NCBI GenBank assembly: GCA_023701385.1
Contig: JAMPXC010000017.1
Location: forward strand, 1-59,845
Direction of reading: 5' to 3'
Length of the DNA: 59,845 nt
Source of the DNA: Pseudobdellovibrio sp.
Lineage (GTDB): Bacteria; Bdellovibrionota; Bdellovibrionia; Bdellovibrionales; Bdellovibrionaceae
In this document: one piece after another, positions 3,773 to 32,215 of the stretch
How positions within the stretch are numbered: the first letter of the stretch is position 1
Layout of the letters: every line of letters begins with the position of its first letter
The notes under the pieces: model-generated
The model's input: only the letters and a program-made list of their open reading frames with translations
Told to the model about the DNA's origin: nothing
Databases searched by the model: none
Position numbers and translations under genes: made by a program

Positions 3773-6670
3773 TTAATTTGAAGACTGGCGACCTGGAATT
3801 CCGCCGCCAATTTGTAGGCTTAAACCTGTTTGGAAATCATCCTGTGCGTATTGGGGCGATAGAGGAGCATAAACACCAAATATAAAATTTACAGGAAGTA
3901 AATAGCCCAAAGTTGTCTCTAGGCGCGCCTCTGCGCCGGCACTCCAGAATGAGCGGCTCATGTTTTCAGCTTTAAGAAAGTCGTTTTTATCAAAAGCGCC
4001 ACCTGAAACAGTCAGGCCATCAACAACGATTGCGCCATTAATGCGTTTTAAATAATACAAATAAGTTCCTGAGCCGCTGTTTACGGTACCTACCGGAAAG
4101 CGGTATTCGGTATTTAGCGTTGTCATGCGTGAACCAAAAAATTGACCCACACCGTAACCGCGCAAGACGAAATCAGGCATCGTGCTATCTGATAACGATG
4201 GCATCACAGCACTGCTTGTTCCGAAGCGGGTAGAAACTTTTTGAAACGTGTGCATAAAGCTCAGTTTTGCATAAAGTGAATGATCCTCAGGTAACCAACG
4301 TGAATTATAACCAATTAAGGCCCCCGTGGCTTGGTCGTAATCGCCTAATAAATCGGGCGCATCTTTTTTTGTCGATTTTTGATTTTCTAATTGTAAAAAA
4401 ATGCCCCAGCCGCTTGTTGGGTAAATATCAAAAAGTGTTTGATCAATACTTTTATAAGAAGCTTGAATGTAAGGGCCTGCGTGCTGTGTGCGAACATCAG
4501 ATTGTTCAACTTCAGAATATTGCAGGCCTGCATTCATAGCTAATTTAGAACTGATTTTGAAAGTATCTGGAATAAATCCTAAAGCCGCCAAACTGCGATC
4601 GATAAAAATATCGGTGTTACCGATTGGTCTAAAATTTCTTGTGGCACTTAAGGTAAATGGCCAAGTAAAGGCTGAATTGATGTAATCAAAATCGTAACCA
4701 ACTTTTTTGATAAATGAGTCGTAATCTACGGCTAAATTATAACGGTGGATTAATAACGGGTCTTGGCTTCCGGTCACAGCTTGAAAGAAAACGCTGTTGT
4801 TGGCACTTGAAGTAGAAACAAAAGGAATCCAGTAATGCGGGTACAAATACTTTAAAGATTCTGCATCTTCGATAGTGTATTCGTAATCGGCAATCGGTGT
4901 TTCAGTGTATTGGTAACGCTCACGAAATTTATTCGAAATTTTTGGTAAAGCTTTGTACTGATGCAGATCAAAACCTTGCACCTGAAAACCACCGGCTGTG
5001 TGAACAGTGGCAATCGCGTAACCTTCTTTGTTTACATCAAAATCAAGAGCGCCAGTTAATAAATGGCTGACAGGAACGTCACCACCGACATCTCTGTATT
5101 GGTAAATATTTGAAACGCCGCTTTTAACTGAAGTGAAATAGATTTTTCCAAAGCGGTTTTTAAGATGTTCAACTTCAGGTGCTGAGACTTTGAAGTCTGA
5201 CAGTTTGTGAGTTTTTAGATTGAATAATTTCGCTTGAATATGGCCCTTAACATCTTTAATTCCAACGAATAATTCGTTGTCGTTGTAGATTGAAATTTCA
5301 TGCAAGCGTTCGTTAAAGCCAAGTTCTAAAAGCTGATCAATGCTTTCGGTGGCTACGTTCATGGCTTTTAACTGCGTTTTACCGTTGAACGTTGAGATAA
5401 AGTAAATGATGTTACCGTGTGAATTCCAGATCGGGTTTCTGGCTCTGGCTGCCGTGGTTAATTTTTTTTCTTTATCTTCAGTTAAATCAAAAGTGTAAAG
5501 ATCAGAAAAAAGTCTTTTTGAATCCACTAAATCAAGTTTTGCAAAAACGATTTTATTTTGTTCAGGATGGAATTCAAAAGTTGAAATATCTCCGTCCGGA
5601 GCTTTTTTAAACTTTTGGCGTTCCCATTTGTTTTCCTGCTTATTAAAATTGTAAAAAGCAATTTTTTTGCCTTTTTTATTCGTAGAAACTAAGGCTAGCG
5701 TTTCACCCGTTGAATTAAATCTTGGATGACGGCCTGAGATCAGAGAAGGATCAATCGGAGTGGCTTGGCTTGTGGGTTCAACGCTTTGTAAAGTTTTAAG
5801 CTGTTCTTCGGCCTGGCGTTGGTAAGTATCTAACGTCAGTAAATAATGGCTTTCGTAATTGTAACCGTAAATTCTTTCGTGTGGAGCTTCAACCCAGTAA
5901 GGAAGGCGAGACGCATGACCTAAAGTTAGTTCATTGATCGCTTTACCTTGATCTTTGGTTCCGATATCAGACATCAACATCGAACCAAATAGGTAAGGTC
6001 TGCTTCCATACGGCCAAGTCGGTAACATTTCGTTGGCTTCAGCTAAAGTGTAGTGAAAAAGTTTTTTCTCTAAAACAAGGGCGCGAATTCCCGCATCCTG
6101 AAAGTAGGATTTTGTTCTTCCTCGGTGAGTAAAGCGGCTTTCGATTTCAACCGCCATACCTTCTTTCCACCACAGAGGTAAAAGAAGATTTGGGGCTACG
6201 ATATTTCCAAAAAGGGGTTTAGCAAGCTTGTAAAGATCTTCGGCAGGGTAGAGTTGCATCACGTGGGCTAATTCGTGGATAAAAAGCTCTTTGGCCCATT
6301 CGCCGGATTCAGATAACGCATCATCGCGACCGGCTTGCACCGGATAAATCATGATATAAGCGTATGGAAGTAGAGTCGTAAATCCATTCGGGGCATCGGT
6401 GGAATCATTTAAAATCACCACAATCTTTTCTTTGGGCGCTACAGTGAAAATAGTCATTATTTCGGCATATGACTGCTCGGCAATGCGAGCATAGTATAGA
6501 CCTAGGTCCTGCTGCTCAGCAGAATAAAAGATCTCAAAGTGCGGAGTGGTCAGCATTTGCCATTTTTCTCGAGAATCTCCAATGCGTTGTGCAAAAATCG
6601 ACTCAATCGGCGTACAAAGCGAGACAAGCAAAACCAAAATTAGGTAGAATCTTGAGATAAATTTAATCAT
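3773..6670 (-). CDS. Secreted HExxH metallopeptidase-like / beta-propeller / outer-membrane barrel protein
   Basis: 965 aa with signal peptide (about residues 1-28). Three parts can be read. First is a peptidase-MA-like zinc domain with HELAH at 132-136 and WKEGMAVE giving a candidate third ligand Glu170. Second, from about 300 to 580, are TolB/WD40-like propeller repeats (GRHPRFNSTGETLALVS, ARNPIWNSHGNIIYFIS). Third, from about 640, is a strand-rich region like a BamA/surface-antigen barrel, ending near GGGIPGR. It is divergently transcribed from pal. The domain order suggests a surface protease or an outer-membrane assembly factor; the substrate is unknown. Confidence 0.8.
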   Translation of the reverse strand: MIKFISRFYLILVLLVSLCTPIESIFAQRIGDSREKWQMLTTPHFEIFYSAEQQDLGLYYARIAEQSYAEIMTIFTVAPKEKIVVILNDSTDAPNGFTTLLPYAYIMIYPVQAGRDDALSESGEWAKELFIHELAHVMQLYPAEDLYKLAKPLFGNIVAPNLLLPLWWKEGMAVEIESRFTHRGRTKSYFQDAGIRALVLEKKLFHYTLAEANEMLPTWPYGSRPYLFGSMLMSDIGTKDQGKAINELTLGHASRLPYWVEAPHERIYGYNYESHYLLTLDTYQRQAEEQLKTLQSVEPTSQATPIDPSLISGRHPRFNSTGETLALVSTNKKGKKIAFYNFNKQENKWERQKFKKAPDGDISTFEFHPEQNKIVFAKLDLVDSKRLFSDLYTFDLTEDKEKKLTTAARARNPIWNSHGNIIYFISTFNGKTQLKAMNVATESIDQLLELGFNERLHEISIYNDNELFVGIKDVKGHIQAKLFNLKTHKLSDFKVSAPEVEHLKNRFGKIYFTSVKSGVSNIYQYRDVGGDVPVSHLLTGALDFDVNKEGYAIATVHTAGGFQVQGFDLHQYKALPKISNKFRERYQYTETPIADYEYTIEDAESLKYLYPHYWIPFVSTSSANNSVFFQAVTGSQDPLLIHRYNLAVDYDSFIKKVGYDFDYINSAFTWPFTLSATRNFRPIGNTDIFIDRSLAALGFIPDTFKISSKLAMNAGLQYSEVEQSDVRTQHAGPYIQASYKSIDQTLFDIYPTSGWGIFLQLENQKSTKKDAPDLLGDYDQATGALIGYNSRWLPEDHSLYAKLSFMHTFQKVSTRFGTSSAVMPSLSDSTMPDFVLRGYGVGQFFGSRMTTLNTEYRFPVGTVNSGSGTYLYYLKRINGAIVVDGLTVSGGAFDKNDFLKAENMSRSFWSAGAEARLETTLGYLLPVNFIFGVYAPLSPQYAQDDFQTGLSLQIGGGIPGRQSSN

Positions 6671-6697
6671 GGTTGATTGTTGAATGCCAATCGGGGT

Positions 6698-6725
6698 TTG
6701 ACAAGGTTTTACAATGGTCTAAATT
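6698..6725 (+). promoter_or_regulatory. Candidate sigma-70 promoter of the pal operon
   Basis: A perfect -35 TTGACA (6698-6703) is followed after 16 bases by TAAATT (6720-6725), which keeps the first two bases and the last T of the -10 consensus. It lies 58 bases upstream of the pal ATG, within the 112-base gap to the divergent 965-residue gene. Confidence 0.55.
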
Positions 6726-6741
6726 GGAAATTCATACATGT

Positions 6742-6756
6742 CGTGCCGAAGGCACG
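6742..6756 (+). promoter_or_regulatory. GAA-loop hairpin in the pal leader
   Basis: CGTGCC-GAA-GGCACG forms a perfect 6-bp stem with a 3-base loop, 14 bases before the AGGAGG ribosome site of pal. No T-run follows, so it is not a terminator. It is one of five similar palindromes in the window. Confidence 0.5.
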
Positions 6757-6782
6757 CAGAGGTACAACTTAGGAGGATATCG

Positions 6783-7334
6783 ATGAATCAAAATTTAAAA
6801 AAATCACTAACTACAGTTGCAGCAGCTTTAGTAATCGCATCAATGGTGTCAGGCTGTTCTTTATTCAGAAAGAAAAGTGGTGATGGTTCATCTGGTGATG
6901 GCTCAAACATCCGCAGCGAAACTACAGCTTCAGGATCTTCAGAAACTTTAGATAACTCACCCATCAATTTAGGTGTAACTGGTTCTGACTCTGGTTCTAT
7001 CGAAGGTTTAAAAACTGTGTTCTTCCCTTACGACTCTTCTTCTTTATCTGAAACTGAGTCGCAAAAATTAATGGGTAATATCGAGTGGATGAAAAAAAAT
7101 CCAAACGCTAAATTAACTATCGAAGGTCACTGTGACCAACGTGGTTCTGCTGAATACAACTTAGCTTTAGGTGAGCGTCGTGCAAATGCAGTTCGCCAAG
7201 TGTTTGTTTCTAACGGCATTAAAGGTAACCGCGTAACTGTTGTTAGCTTTGGTAAAGAGAAATTATTAGCGCAAGGTGATTCTGACGAAGCGATGGCTAA
7301 AAATCGTCGTGCTAACTTTGTTCCGGTTCAATAA
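6783..7334 (+). CDS. pal: Peptidoglycan-associated lipoprotein Pal
   Basis: 183 aa. Pal anchors the outer membrane to peptidoglycan and works with the Tol complex during constriction. The start at 6783 is fixed by a perfect AGGAGG (6771-6776). The lipobox is MVSGC with Cys25. After a Ser/Gly-rich linker comes the OmpA-like peptidoglycan-binding domain, with FFPYDSSSLS, IEGHCDQRGSAEYNLALGER and RANAVRQVF; the Asp and Arg that hold meso-diaminopimelate are present. Its stop overlaps the next start (TAATG), so the three lipoprotein genes form one operon. tolQRAB are not in this window. Confidence 0.95.
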   Translation: MNQNLKKSLTTVAAALVIASMVSGCSLFRKKSGDGSSGDGSNIRSETTASGSSETLDNSPINLGVTGSDSGSIEGLKTVFFPYDSSSLSETESQKLMGNIEWMKKNPNAKLTIEGHCDQRGSAEYNLALGERRANAVRQVFVSNGIKGNRVTVVSFGKEKLLAQGDSDEAMAKNRRANFVPVQ

Positions 7335-29005: not shown

Positions 29006-29076
29006 TGTTTTATTGTCAGAATTAATGCACAAATAAGCAATCAAAGCTAGAATGATACATACCAAAGTTGGAGCCT

Positions 29077-29904
29077 ATGAGTCTATTTAACGAACTTTCC
29101 CTGTGGTCGGATTATCCAATCGTTGCTTTTGACACTGAAACGAGTGGTCCATACCCCTTAGAATCAGAAATTGTCGAGCTTGGGGCTGTTAAATGGTTCA
29201 AAGGCGAAATCATCGGCCAGTTTCAGACATTGTTAAAACCTTCAAAACCGATGACTCAAGATAATATCAATATTCATGGTATCACTAACGAAATGGTGGC
29301 CGATGCACCATTCATGAAAGATCAAATCGTGGCTTTTCATGAATTTATCAAAGATTCGTTATTAATCGCCCATCATGCGCCGTTTGATTTAGGTTTTATC
29401 GCCCCTGAGTTTGAAAAAGCGGGATTGCCGTTTCCAACGAACGTGCATCTTTGCTCAAGCTTAATTTCAAGAGCGTTACTGCACACGACAAACCACAAAT
29501 TACAAACTTTAGTGAAAGAATTAAATCTAGTGGGTGGTGATGCGCACCGAGCTTATGACGATGCCTACGCGTGTTTACAAGTTTTTATGAAAGCCGCAGA
29601 AAAATTAGATGTGCCATCGTTAGAAAAACTAAAAGCGGTACAAGCTAAAAAATTAGAGTGGGCCAATTACACACTATTTTCAAAACAAACAGAGCAGATT
29701 AAATCTCTAGTCGATGCGATTCAAAAGCAAAAAACGATTCAGATTGTTTATGAAGGCGGGCAAAGTAAAAACAAATTACGCCCGATTACTCCCAAGGGTA
29801 TCGTTAGAAACCCTGACGGAGATTACGTGCACGCTGAGTGTGGTTTAGATAATCAGCGTAAACGTTTTTATCTCTCTAAAATTATTGATATCGAACTAGT
29901 TTAG
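29077..29904 (+). CDS. DEDDh 3'-5' exonuclease with C-terminal WYL-like domain
   Basis: 275 aa from the ATG at 29077 (GGAG upstream). Residues 10-180 are a DnaQ-like exonuclease: FDTET at 18-22 (Asp19, Glu21), IHGITNEMV, AHHAPFDLGF (third Asp) and HRAYDDA (His and Asp). The last ~70 residues (LVDAIQKQKTIQIVYEGG ... LRPITPKGIV ... KRFYLSKIIDIEL) match the WYL sensor-domain pattern, though the W-Y-L tripeptide itself is altered. WYL domains bind nucleotide or DNA-end ligands in other proteins, so the nuclease may be ligand-controlled (inference). Not a replicative epsilon subunit. Confidence 0.88.
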   Translation: MSLFNELSLWSDYPIVAFDTETSGPYPLESEIVELGAVKWFKGEIIGQFQTLLKPSKPMTQDNINIHGITNEMVADAPFMKDQIVAFHEFIKDSLLIAHHAPFDLGFIAPEFEKAGLPFPTNVHLCSSLISRALLHTTNHKLQTLVKELNLVGGDAHRAYDDAYACLQVFMKAAEKLDVPSLEKLKAVQAKKLEWANYTLFSKQTEQIKSLVDAIQKQKTIQIVYEGGQSKNKLRPITPKGIVRNPDGDYVHAECGLDNQRKRFYLSKIIDIELV

Positions 29905-30800
29905 TCTTTGTGGATTTCTATCAGGCGGGCTTTGATTTTTTCGGCCAGCTTTTCTAAGTGTTTGAAATCATCGCCAGCTCTAAGCTGTAAGGCTTTTTTC
30001 TCTTCGTCTAAGCCCTTGCCATCAAGCGCTGCGCTTAAGAAGCGTTCGAAGGCGTAAACTGGGCCTGCGATTCTGTGCGAGATAAATTTTGCTACCGAAA
30101 ATAGGACGATTGAAAACGCTAGAACTAGAATTCCAAAAGAATATAAGAAGGCTTTTGTATATTCTTCGTGGGATTCGTAAACACCTAATTCTTTAAGGGC
30201 GATTTTAAAATACGTGTATGAGAATACCATACACACTAGCGAAACTAACACGCCTGTGCCGATGAAAATAAAAGCGTATTTTAATTGGAAGCGTTTGTTG
30301 ATCCAGAATTTATTTCGGTAATCTTGATCAGGCCATAGTAGCTTGCCGTCTTTGAATAAGGAATAAATTAACAGCGCGTAACCAACCCATTGGATCATGT
30401 CGGCCACATTCCAAATTGGTGTGTGGTAGTTGCTGATTTTCATACTGATAAAATCTAAAACATAACCATAGTACGTGCGGTCTAAAACGTTTCCTAAAAT
30501 ACCGCCCACTAAAAGTGATAAACCTAAACGTAGGCGCATCACTTTCACGGGAACCATAAATTGTAAGAATGCATATAAGCTTAAAATAAAAAAGCCGCTT
30601 GTTGACAAAGTAACGATACGAAGAAACGCAGGTAGTTTTGAAAACATACCTAACATGGCGCCATCATTGTTTACGAGGACGAAGTGGATTGGTCCCACCC
30701 AGTGCTCTGTCATAGTCCACGCCCAATTTTTTGAAGCTTGATCGGCAAACACTGCTAAAAGTAGTGTTGCGACAACCAAAAGCCAATCTCTAGTTTTCAT
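29901..30800 (-). CDS. lspA: Lipoprotein signal peptidase II fused to a two-TM HAMP-like module
   Basis: 299 aa, about twice the usual ~165. Residues 1-155 are a complete LspA: Asp20 in ADQASKNW, NNDGAMLG, catalytic Asp107 in GGILGNVLDR and Asp134 in WNVADM, four membrane helices. Then come two more membrane helices (FQLKYAFIFIGTGVLVSLVC and SFGILVLAFSIVLFSVAKFI) with a ~20-residue loop between, and a HAMP-like cytoplasmic segment (SHRIAGPVYAFERFLSA ... RAGDDFKHLEKLAEKIKARL). The fusion is in one frame with no sign of a sequencing break. It overlaps the exonuclease end by four bases and lies 29 bases from dacB. Confidence 0.9.
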   Translation of the reverse strand: MKTRDWLLVVATLLLAVFADQASKNWAWTMTEHWVGPIHFVLVNNDGAMLGMFSKLPAFLRIVTLSTSGFFILSLYAFLQFMVPVKVMRLRLGLSLLVGGILGNVLDRTYYGYVLDFISMKISNYHTPIWNVADMIQWVGYALLIYSLFKDGKLLWPDQDYRNKFWINKRFQLKYAFIFIGTGVLVSLVCMVFSYTYFKIALKELGVYESHEEYTKAFLYSFGILVLAFSIVLFSVAKFISHRIAGPVYAFERFLSAALDGKGLDEEKKALQLRAGDDFKHLEKLAEKIKARLIEIHKD

Positions 30801-30829: not shown

Positions 30830-32215
30830 ATGAACTACATATTGCGATTATTAATTTTACTCAACTATGGTCTGGCGCCAGCGATAGCGACAGCGCAAAC
30901 ATCTCAATCATTGCAGGGAACAGTTAAAGAAATTCTAACCAAAAATAAGATTAGCCTTGAGCATGTGGGTCTTGTTATTTCTTTGAAAGATCAAGATATC
31001 GCCGAAAACAACGCTAAAAAATTATATATTCCGGCCTCGATTTCAAAACTTTTAACTTCATATTCAGTTCTGAAAAATATTGATCTGACAGAGAAGTTTA
31101 AAACCGAGTTGTATTTTGACGGAAAAAATCTTTACTTAAAAGGTAATGGCGATCCTAGTTTTGTCTCTGAAAATCTATGGTATCTAGTGAATGAATTTAC
31201 CCGTCAGAAAGTTCGCTTAATTTCCGGAGATATTATTGTTGACGATTATTATTTTGATGATGTCAGATTCGATAATTCGCGCGAAGCAACACGCGTGGAT
31301 CGTTCATATGATGCGCCGGTTGGGGCGATGAGCTTTAATTGGAACTCGGTGAATATATTTGTTAAACCGGGTGAGAAAGAAAATGATAAAGCCCAGGTCG
31401 TACTTGATCCGGAAAATTTGTATTTCGGTTTAATCAATAAAACAGTGACTAAGAAAAAGTTGAGCCGTGAGTTAATTATCGATGTGAACCAGAAAGAGCG
31501 CACCATCACGGTAACAGGTGATGTGTTAAAAGGTGGGCTTGAAAAAGCTTACTATAAAAATGTGGCTGATCCTGAACAGTGGGCCGGCGAAAACTTACGG
31601 GCTTTTTTGAGCCAAAGAGGCATCGAAGTTAAAGGCAAGGTTAAGCACGGAAAAACTCCTTCAGCAGCAGAGAAAATTGTTACTTTCGAGAGTAAAAGTT
31701 TGTCGATGATCTTGGCTGATATGAATAAGTTTTCGAATAACTACGTGGCTGAAATGTTAACTAAGAATATGGCGGCCTTGTCAGGTGAAACTCCGGCGAC
31801 ATTAGCCACTGGTGTAAAGGTGATTCAGAAAGACCTTAAAGAGCTTGGGTTAGGTAAAGAAGATTTTAAAATTTTTAATCCATCAGGATTAACTCGCGAT
31901 AACCAACTGTCAGCTCACGCCATGGGATCTGTGTTAAAGGCCATGCAAAATGATTTTCGCTATTTTCCAACGCTGTTAGAGTCGCTTCCGATTGCAGCTA
32001 TTGATGGTACATTGAAAAAACGTATGAAAAATTCTCCGGCCTCAGGCTTTGTGCGTGCAAAAACGGGATATTTAGACGGTGTTGTCACTTTAGCGGGCTA
32101 TGCTGGACAAAAGAACGGGGATATTTACCGCTTCGCGTTTCTATACAATGGTCCACAAGATGAGGCGCGTGTGCGTGAAGCTTTTGATCAAATCCTAATT
32201 TATCTTCTAAAATAA
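30830..32215 (+). CDS. dacB: D-alanyl-D-alanine carboxypeptidase/endopeptidase DacB (PBP4 type)
   Basis: 461 aa, class C penicillin-binding protein. Signal peptide at 1-22. Active-site motifs: SISK with Ser70 and Lys73 (PASISKLL), SNN (NKFSNNYVAEM) and KTG (RAKTGYLDG). The large insert between motifs 1 and 2 is typical of PBP4. It trims or cleaves peptidoglycan cross-links in the periplasm. It has no Shine-Dalgarno and starts only 29 bases from the divergent lsp start. The lytic transglycosylase gene follows 4 bases after its stop. Confidence 0.95.
   Translation: MNYILRLLILLNYGLAPAIATAQTSQSLQGTVKEILTKNKISLEHVGLVISLKDQDIAENNAKKLYIPASISKLLTSYSVLKNIDLTEKFKTELYFDGKNLYLKGNGDPSFVSENLWYLVNEFTRQKVRLISGDIIVDDYYFDDVRFDNSREATRVDRSYDAPVGAMSFNWNSVNIFVKPGEKENDKAQVVLDPENLYFGLINKTVTKKKLSRELIIDVNQKERTITVTGDVLKGGLEKAYYKNVADPEQWAGENLRAFLSQRGIEVKGKVKHGKTPSAAEKIVTFESKSLSMILADMNKFSNNYVAEMLTKNMAALSGETPATLATGVKVIQKDLKELGLGKEDFKIFNPSGLTRDNQLSAHAMGSVLKAMQNDFRYFPTLLESLPIAAIDGTLKKRMKNSPASGFVRAKTGYLDGVVTLAGYAGQKNGDIYRFAFLYNGPQDEARVREAFDQILIYLLK

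Follow-up and report, generated by a model that had tools for sequence, protein, structure and literature searches.

The usual picture of LspA, the type II signal peptidase (PF01252), is of one housekeeping enzyme that is not regulated and that serves as an antibiotic target. HAMP modules (PF00672) are parts of two-component kinases and chemoreceptors, and class-specific sortases and the exosortase with PEP-CTERM are processing enzymes encoded beside their substrates. The lipoboxes of spirochaetes and of some cyanobacteria are looser than usual, and that of Ycf48 is reportedly atypical. In the open-access full-text literature we found neither an LspA-HAMP fusion nor an FQNC lipobox.

The gene described here lies in a 59,845-nucleotide stretch of DNA from a Pseudobdellovibrio sp. 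(class Bdellovibrionia), called the window below. The host, which is related to the predator Bdellovibrio, carries a further copy of the lipoprotein-finishing enzyme, permanently joined to a signaling-type membrane module; this LspA-HAMP fusion appears to be a variant form of signal peptidase II. The fusion shares the fold, the four transmembrane (TM) helices, the active-site residues, and the spacing of the Asp pair with LspA of Staphylococcus aureus (6RYO) and Pseudomonas aeruginosa (5DIR), but it is about 140 residues longer, with a 2TM-HAMP module, and has Gln-Trp after the second catalytic Asp; moreover, it coexists with ordinary LspA and is tied to polar lipoboxes in other classes. Its module resembles HAMP in that the second TM helix continues into a helix bearing a Gly-Pro motif, followed by another helix with a conserved Arg and Asp, and homologues of it pass the Pfam cut-off. 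Unlike the HAMP of kinases and chemoreceptors, however, it is divergent, C-terminal, and fused to a protease, and it lacks a kinase or chemoreceptor output domain. As with the sortases and the exosortase, the enzyme gene may stand beside unrelated surface proteins sharing a short sorting signal, but the fusion belongs to the SPase II family of aspartyl peptidases and its presumed signal is N-terminal, so the likeness is one of analogy and not of homology.

Surface lipoproteins matter in prey entry by predatory bacteria (Bd0875; PMC11003981). If the function proposed below is correct, there would be a hidden lipoprotein class with a dedicated enzyme across the whole phylum, bacterial predators included.

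Conservation of the fusion

The fusion gene (positions 29901 to 30800, reverse strand; 299 residues) has 58 distinct orthologues in the order; these have 38 to 84% identity, are open throughout, and align uninterrupted. With the window protein as the query, the fused protein was found in 57 of 60 genomes (its own and those of relatives), and a profile (A1) search of 119 genomes of the class recovered 103 full-length copies, six divergent or decayed full-length ones, and one piece at a contig end. Retention in the class is vertical and near-universal; in other families of the phylum the fusion is patchy, sometimes with two copies per genome. The initial annotation had allowed for a poorly conserved tail. 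Instead, W156, P157, R162, Q172, S241, G246, P247, A250, F251, R274, D277, and F279 of the tail are invariant among the 58 orthologues, as are D20, K24, N45, G47, N104, D107, R108, D116, N131, and D134 of the LspA half, and in comparison with an 84% identical relative dN is 0.126 for the LspA half and 0.129 for the tail (synonymous change is saturated). Purifying selection acts equally on the two halves. Judged by these alignments, the fusion is true, old, and conserved across the class.

The LspA half and its ordinary relatives

Residues 1 to 155 (30336 to 30800, reverse strand) were initially described as a complete LspA, and this assignment holds. Pfam Peptidase_A8 matches residues 14 to 149 (E value of 6.1e-25; 88.5 bits against a cut-off of 25), the closest solved structures by sequence are LspA proteins (6ryo at an E value of 3e-10), and the predicted fold, with four TM helices, matches LspA structures 5dir and 6ryp (Foldseek; E value of about 1e-5). 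The protein nevertheless misses the cut-off of the lspA equivalog model TIGR00077 (57.5 bits against 73.95), and it is best read as a divergent member of the family whose status as a housekeeping equivalog is unsupported by that model.

From a published list of conserved LspA residues (PMC6952399), the window protein has D20, K24, N45, G47, N104, D107, R108, V114, D116, N131, A133, and D134, while Phe132 of the list is replaced by Trp130. The S. aureus enzyme has D109 and R110, and its catalytic pair is D118 and D136 (PMC6952399). By homology, the catalytic pair of the fusion is taken to be Asp116 (30453 to 30455, reverse strand) and Asp134 (30399 to 30401, reverse strand), because the 9- and 18-residue spacings equal those of S. 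aureus; both residues are present in 58/58 fusions of the order and 35/35 of other classes. Asp20, Asp107, and Asp134 had been put forward as the key residues, and all three are present and invariant, but Asp107 (30480 to 30482, reverse strand) belongs to the conserved DR motif and lies outside the catalytic pair.

Shortly after Asp134, Gln137-Trp138 (30387 to 30392, reverse strand) form a signature of the fused type. All 58 fusions of the order have both residues, and in other classes 25 of 35 have the Gln and 24 of 35 the Trp, whereas ordinary LspA proteins have Ile (15/15) and Val (14/15) at the same two positions. A tree built on the LspA part groups every ordinary LspA sampled into one clade (support 99/91), with the fusions of all classes outside it, a topology under which the fused type could have arisen only once. 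The genomes of the class carry one or two ordinary LspAs in addition to the fusion, and nearly all relatives carry at least one. Because the genome of the window has two ordinary LspA genes elsewhere, the fusion is an extra and probably specialized enzyme, and the earlier suggestion that it controls lipoprotein maturation in general is unsupported.

The 2TM-HAMP tail

The tail was predicted from the start to contain two further membrane helices around a short loop and a HAMP-like segment, a description that our data support. In the AlphaFold2 (AF2) monomer model helices span residues 169 to 204, 212 to 259, and 280 to 298; the model is weak, with five input sequences and a mean pLDDT of 59 (about 50 in the tail). 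With this low confidence, the tail would consist of a fifth TM helix with a juxtamembrane motif and the invariant Gln172 (residues 169 to 204; 30189 to 30296, reverse strand), a short loop, a sixth TM helix (residues 212 to 240; 30081 to 30167, reverse strand), and a HAMP-like helix pair. The putative divergent HAMP (residues 241 to 298; 29907 to 30080, reverse strand) is recognized by conservation and homology, carries the motif SHRIAGPVYAFE ... LRxxDDFKHLE, and has S241, G246, P247, A250, F251, R274, D277, and F279 as its invariant residues.

The HAMP assignment, for which a search against PF00672 had been proposed, is indirect. When the tail was searched against Pfam, NCBIfam, and PDB, HAMP was not matched directly; the window tail matches no Pfam family, and HAMP is absent among the 25 Pfam families listed for 50 fusion tails. 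Two free-standing homologues do pass the PF00672 cut-off of 25 bits (L075, 28.7 bits, E value of 1.7e-6; L073, 26.3 bits, 9.4e-6), and a profile of the fusion tails matches that of the free-standing homologues (A2 versus A3; probability 99.8, E value of 2.6e-30), a set that was gathered with the fusion as the query. The tail thus appears HAMP-like by homology, and through its free-standing homologues only. Such free-standing 2TM proteins of 140 to 180 residues with the tail motif occur throughout Bdellovibrionota, as a widespread minimal 2TM-HAMP family without an output domain (L068 to L079 and L009). In one locus (L085) a free-standing 2TM-HAMP gene (5374 to 5883) lies directly downstream of the fusion (5905 to 6900), an arrangement that suggests hetero-oligomers.

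The locus in Bdellovibrionia

In the window the fusion gene is flanked by a divergent dacB gene (30830 to 32215, forward strand; PBP4-type, Peptidase_S13, E value of 4.5e-81), kept in most of the class, and by a convergent gene for an RNase_T exonuclease with a C-terminal WYL domain (29068 to 29904, forward strand; Pfam match). The end of the latter overlaps that of the fusion by 4 bases, and this synteny extends through most of the class.

A gene for a peptide-binding lipoprotein, SBP5 (SBP_bac_5, E value of 1e-58), immediately precedes the fusion on its own strand in 27 of 63 class loci, a REC-GGDEF gene is adjacent in 11, and both are present in 6. A tight string of SBP5 lipoprotein, REC-GGDEF, and LspA-HAMP genes occurs at L062:2582-5960, L064, L055, L180, L182, and L183 and suggests a link to c-di-GMP signaling. 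Neither gene is next to the fusion in the window. A close SBP5 homologue is also absent from the window's genome, in which the best match has 29% identity, and this weakens SBP5 as a candidate for a general partner.

Polar lipoboxes beside the fusion in other classes

The published lipobox consensus is L(VI)-A(STVI)-G(AS)-C (PMC6952399). In family f18, two lipoproteins encoded in a cluster ended by the fusion have instead His, Gln, or Asn before the Cys and Phe or Tyr at position -3. Fusion-adjacent lipoprotein clusters have His, Asn, or Gln at position -1 throughout (c10, 12/12; c13, 11/11; c32, 3/3), and in other families unrelated secreted proteins beside the fusion carry FQNC, YQNC, YQQC, or VLQNC. 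The form [FY]x[HNQ]C accounts for 30 of 50 lipobox candidates in fusion loci outside the class, compared with 0 of 87 in a Ser-for-Cys control; it is found in none of 17 candidates elsewhere in a fusion-bearing f18 genome (G157) and in none of 22 in two fusion-less f18 genomes (G130 and G221). When the loci outside the class were collapsed by shared neighbors into 18 independent groups, 11 groups had a hydrophobic N-terminal segment ended by [FY]-x-[HNQ] at most two genes away, in 10 non-homologous neighbor families. The background rate is 92 of 1,093 genes (8.4%), giving a binomial P value of 2.7e-8, which is flattering since the motif was chosen post hoc, after inspection. Free-standing 2TM-HAMP genes had no FQN-lipobox neighbors, so it is the LspA half that the motif accompanies.

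Most motif neighbors carry Cys as the next residue and hence a noncanonical lipobox. In five (L126, L146, L151, L154, and L158) FQN or FLN is followed by Phe, Met, or Gly; these Cys-less neighbors would be unusable by an ordinary SPase II and count against a strict lipobox reading. Large secreted proteins of the Cys-less kind are encoded at L126:6043-7470, L146:1919-4972, L151:1134-4124, L154:980-4813, L158:2379-4817, and L164. The FQNF, FQNM, FLNF, or FQNG that closes their N-terminal hydrophobic segment might be a sorting signal lacking the Cys to which a lipid would be attached.

The f18 cluster is conserved (L131:2723-10528, L139, L125, L129, L130, L141, and L145) and encodes, in order, a CxxCH protein (c14), a polar-lipobox lipoprotein (c10), an RRDFL-type twin-arginine-like protein (c9), a CxxCH polar-lipobox lipoprotein (c13), LspA-HAMP, a second CxxCH protein, and a TPR-like protein. 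Six members searched against Pfam gave no meaningful match.

For putative polar-lipobox substrates, enrichment was thus found in other classes of the phylum and not beside the window gene. None of the 63 Bdellovibrionia loci has a [FY]x[HNQ]C neighbor, and the SBP5 neighbors there have mostly ordinary lipoboxes, which speaks against a specialized enzyme; their lipobox Cys is kept wherever the N terminus is readable, four cases in reduced genomes excepted.

Lipoboxes across genomes of the class

Lipobox surveys covered about 1.3 Mb of genome samples plus fetched loci. The codon pattern for a hydrophobic segment followed by [FY]QNC was compared with a reversed-pattern control; only this form is usable, the broad pattern [FY]x[HN]C being swamped by chance. 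The [FY]QNC pattern exceeds the control nearly everywhere in the class, with 10 versus 2 occurrences in the window's own genome, 36 versus 2 in G088, and 38 versus 4 in G053. Two fusion-less reduced genomes are at control level (G086, 2 versus 2; G095, 2 versus 3), although genome reduction in itself leaves fewer secreted proteins. Among lipobox candidates, 4 of 42 in a 400-kb sample of G018 are of this type, and no such lipoprotein was found in a 260-kb sample of the window's genome.

Some genomes keep FQNC proteins with no detected fusion (G010, 16 versus 3; G057, 10 versus 2; G121, 15 versus 4), which counts against a specialized enzyme. A closer look at three apparent exceptions shows that the whole dacB-exonuclease locus is missing in G010 and is split over contigs in G026, so that the absence of the fusion looks like an assembly gap in both, and G010 was set aside as a counterexample. 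The absence in G057 may be a true loss.

Possible function of the fusion and alternatives

We favor, at close to even chances, the reading that the fusion is an additional, specialized type II signal peptidase coupled to partners through its HAMP. Its substrates would be a restricted set of secreted proteins with a polar lipobox of the form [FY]-[QNT]-[HNQ]-C in place of [LVI]-x-[GAS]-C, encoded next door in other classes of the phylum and scattered in the genome in Bdellovibrionia. The signal peptide would be placed between TM helices 2, 3, and 4, and D116 and D134 would cut before the lipid-modified Cys. The cytoplasmic HAMP coiled coil would hold a dimer together or tie the enzyme to partners, candidates being the SBP5 lipoprotein, the REC-GGDEF protein, and the free-standing 2TM-HAMP proteins, and processing would thereby be coupled to a signaling or assembly step. 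What the sequences show directly is the conserved fusion with its intact active site, its occurrence alongside ordinary LspA, its linkage in other classes to proteins with polar lipoboxes, and its joint decay with SBP5; both the specialized cleavage of polar signals and the dimerization or partner contact through HAMP we infer from sequence comparison. A broader proposal, which we hold more tentatively and consider somewhat doubtful, is that Bdellovibrionota have a second route of lipoprotein maturation, in which a HAMP-coupled SPase II has altered specificity for [FY]-[QNT]-[HNQ]-C (perhaps also Cys-less FQN), its substrates are co-encoded in several classes, and the HAMP has a role that outlives the peptidase.

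The strongest rival, unlikely in our estimate, is a receptor or scaffold: the LspA domain would dock a particular lipoprotein (SBP5 in the class), the 2TM-HAMP would relay its state to a cytoplasmic partner such as the REC-GGDEF protein, and peptidase activity would be secondary. In six reduced genomes active-site residues of the fusion are missing, including both catalytic Asp in L163, and the HAMP motif of the tail is intact in all six. In four loci (L163, L166, L167, and L168) the SBP5 protein has lost its lipobox Cys and swapped the lipid anchor for a membrane segment, yet its gene still adjoins the fusion, and some genes of the SBP5-REC-GGDEF-fusion strings overlap or lie a few bases apart. 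That the six decayed fusions keep the tail and four SBP5 proteins lose the Cys points to a role of the HAMP part other than service to the peptidase and to linked change in SBP5 and the fusion. However, the six cases are few and mutually related, and D20, N45, N104, D107, D116, N131, and D134, every active-site residue, are kept in 92 of 98 fusions. Further points against a receptor are that the fusion has no output domain of its own, that REC-GGDEF is adjacent in so few of the class loci, and that in the window genome neither proposed partner is beside the fusion.

The initial annotation envisaged a general lipoprotein peptidase that its HAMP would switch in response to a periplasmic or membrane signal or, alternatively, a module that recruits a partner. 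Switching, which we think quite improbable, would fit the usual role of HAMP modules in transmitting signals and a tail that is conserved under the same purifying selection as the peptidase half. Nevertheless, ordinary LspAs coexist in the same genomes, and coupling to a periplasmic signal found no support in the form of a ligand: the loop is very short, in the model apparently too short for a ligand domain. Partner recruitment was the better half of the proposal, given that in reduced genomes the active site of the peptidase is lost before the HAMP motif.

Another reading is a backup LspA that would protect, for instance, against globomycin or myxovirescin from soil neighbors, with the tail as a mere anchor. 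Extra lspA copies can in principle give resistance to these compounds, and the bacteria share habitats with their producers, but near-universal vertical retention in the class, the strong conservation of the tail, and the linkage to particular secreted proteins make this very improbable. A frameshift, as the initial annotation had considered, or an assembly or annotation artefact joining two genes is already refuted: tail homologues do exist free-standing, but the fusion is uninterrupted in the 58 orthologues and in about 109 of the 119 class genomes, and pN is far below pS in both halves.

At one locus (L142:3830-5794) the LspA-HAMP open reading frame is further fused (654 aa) to a CxxCH protein, which is encoded by a separate downstream gene in related loci.
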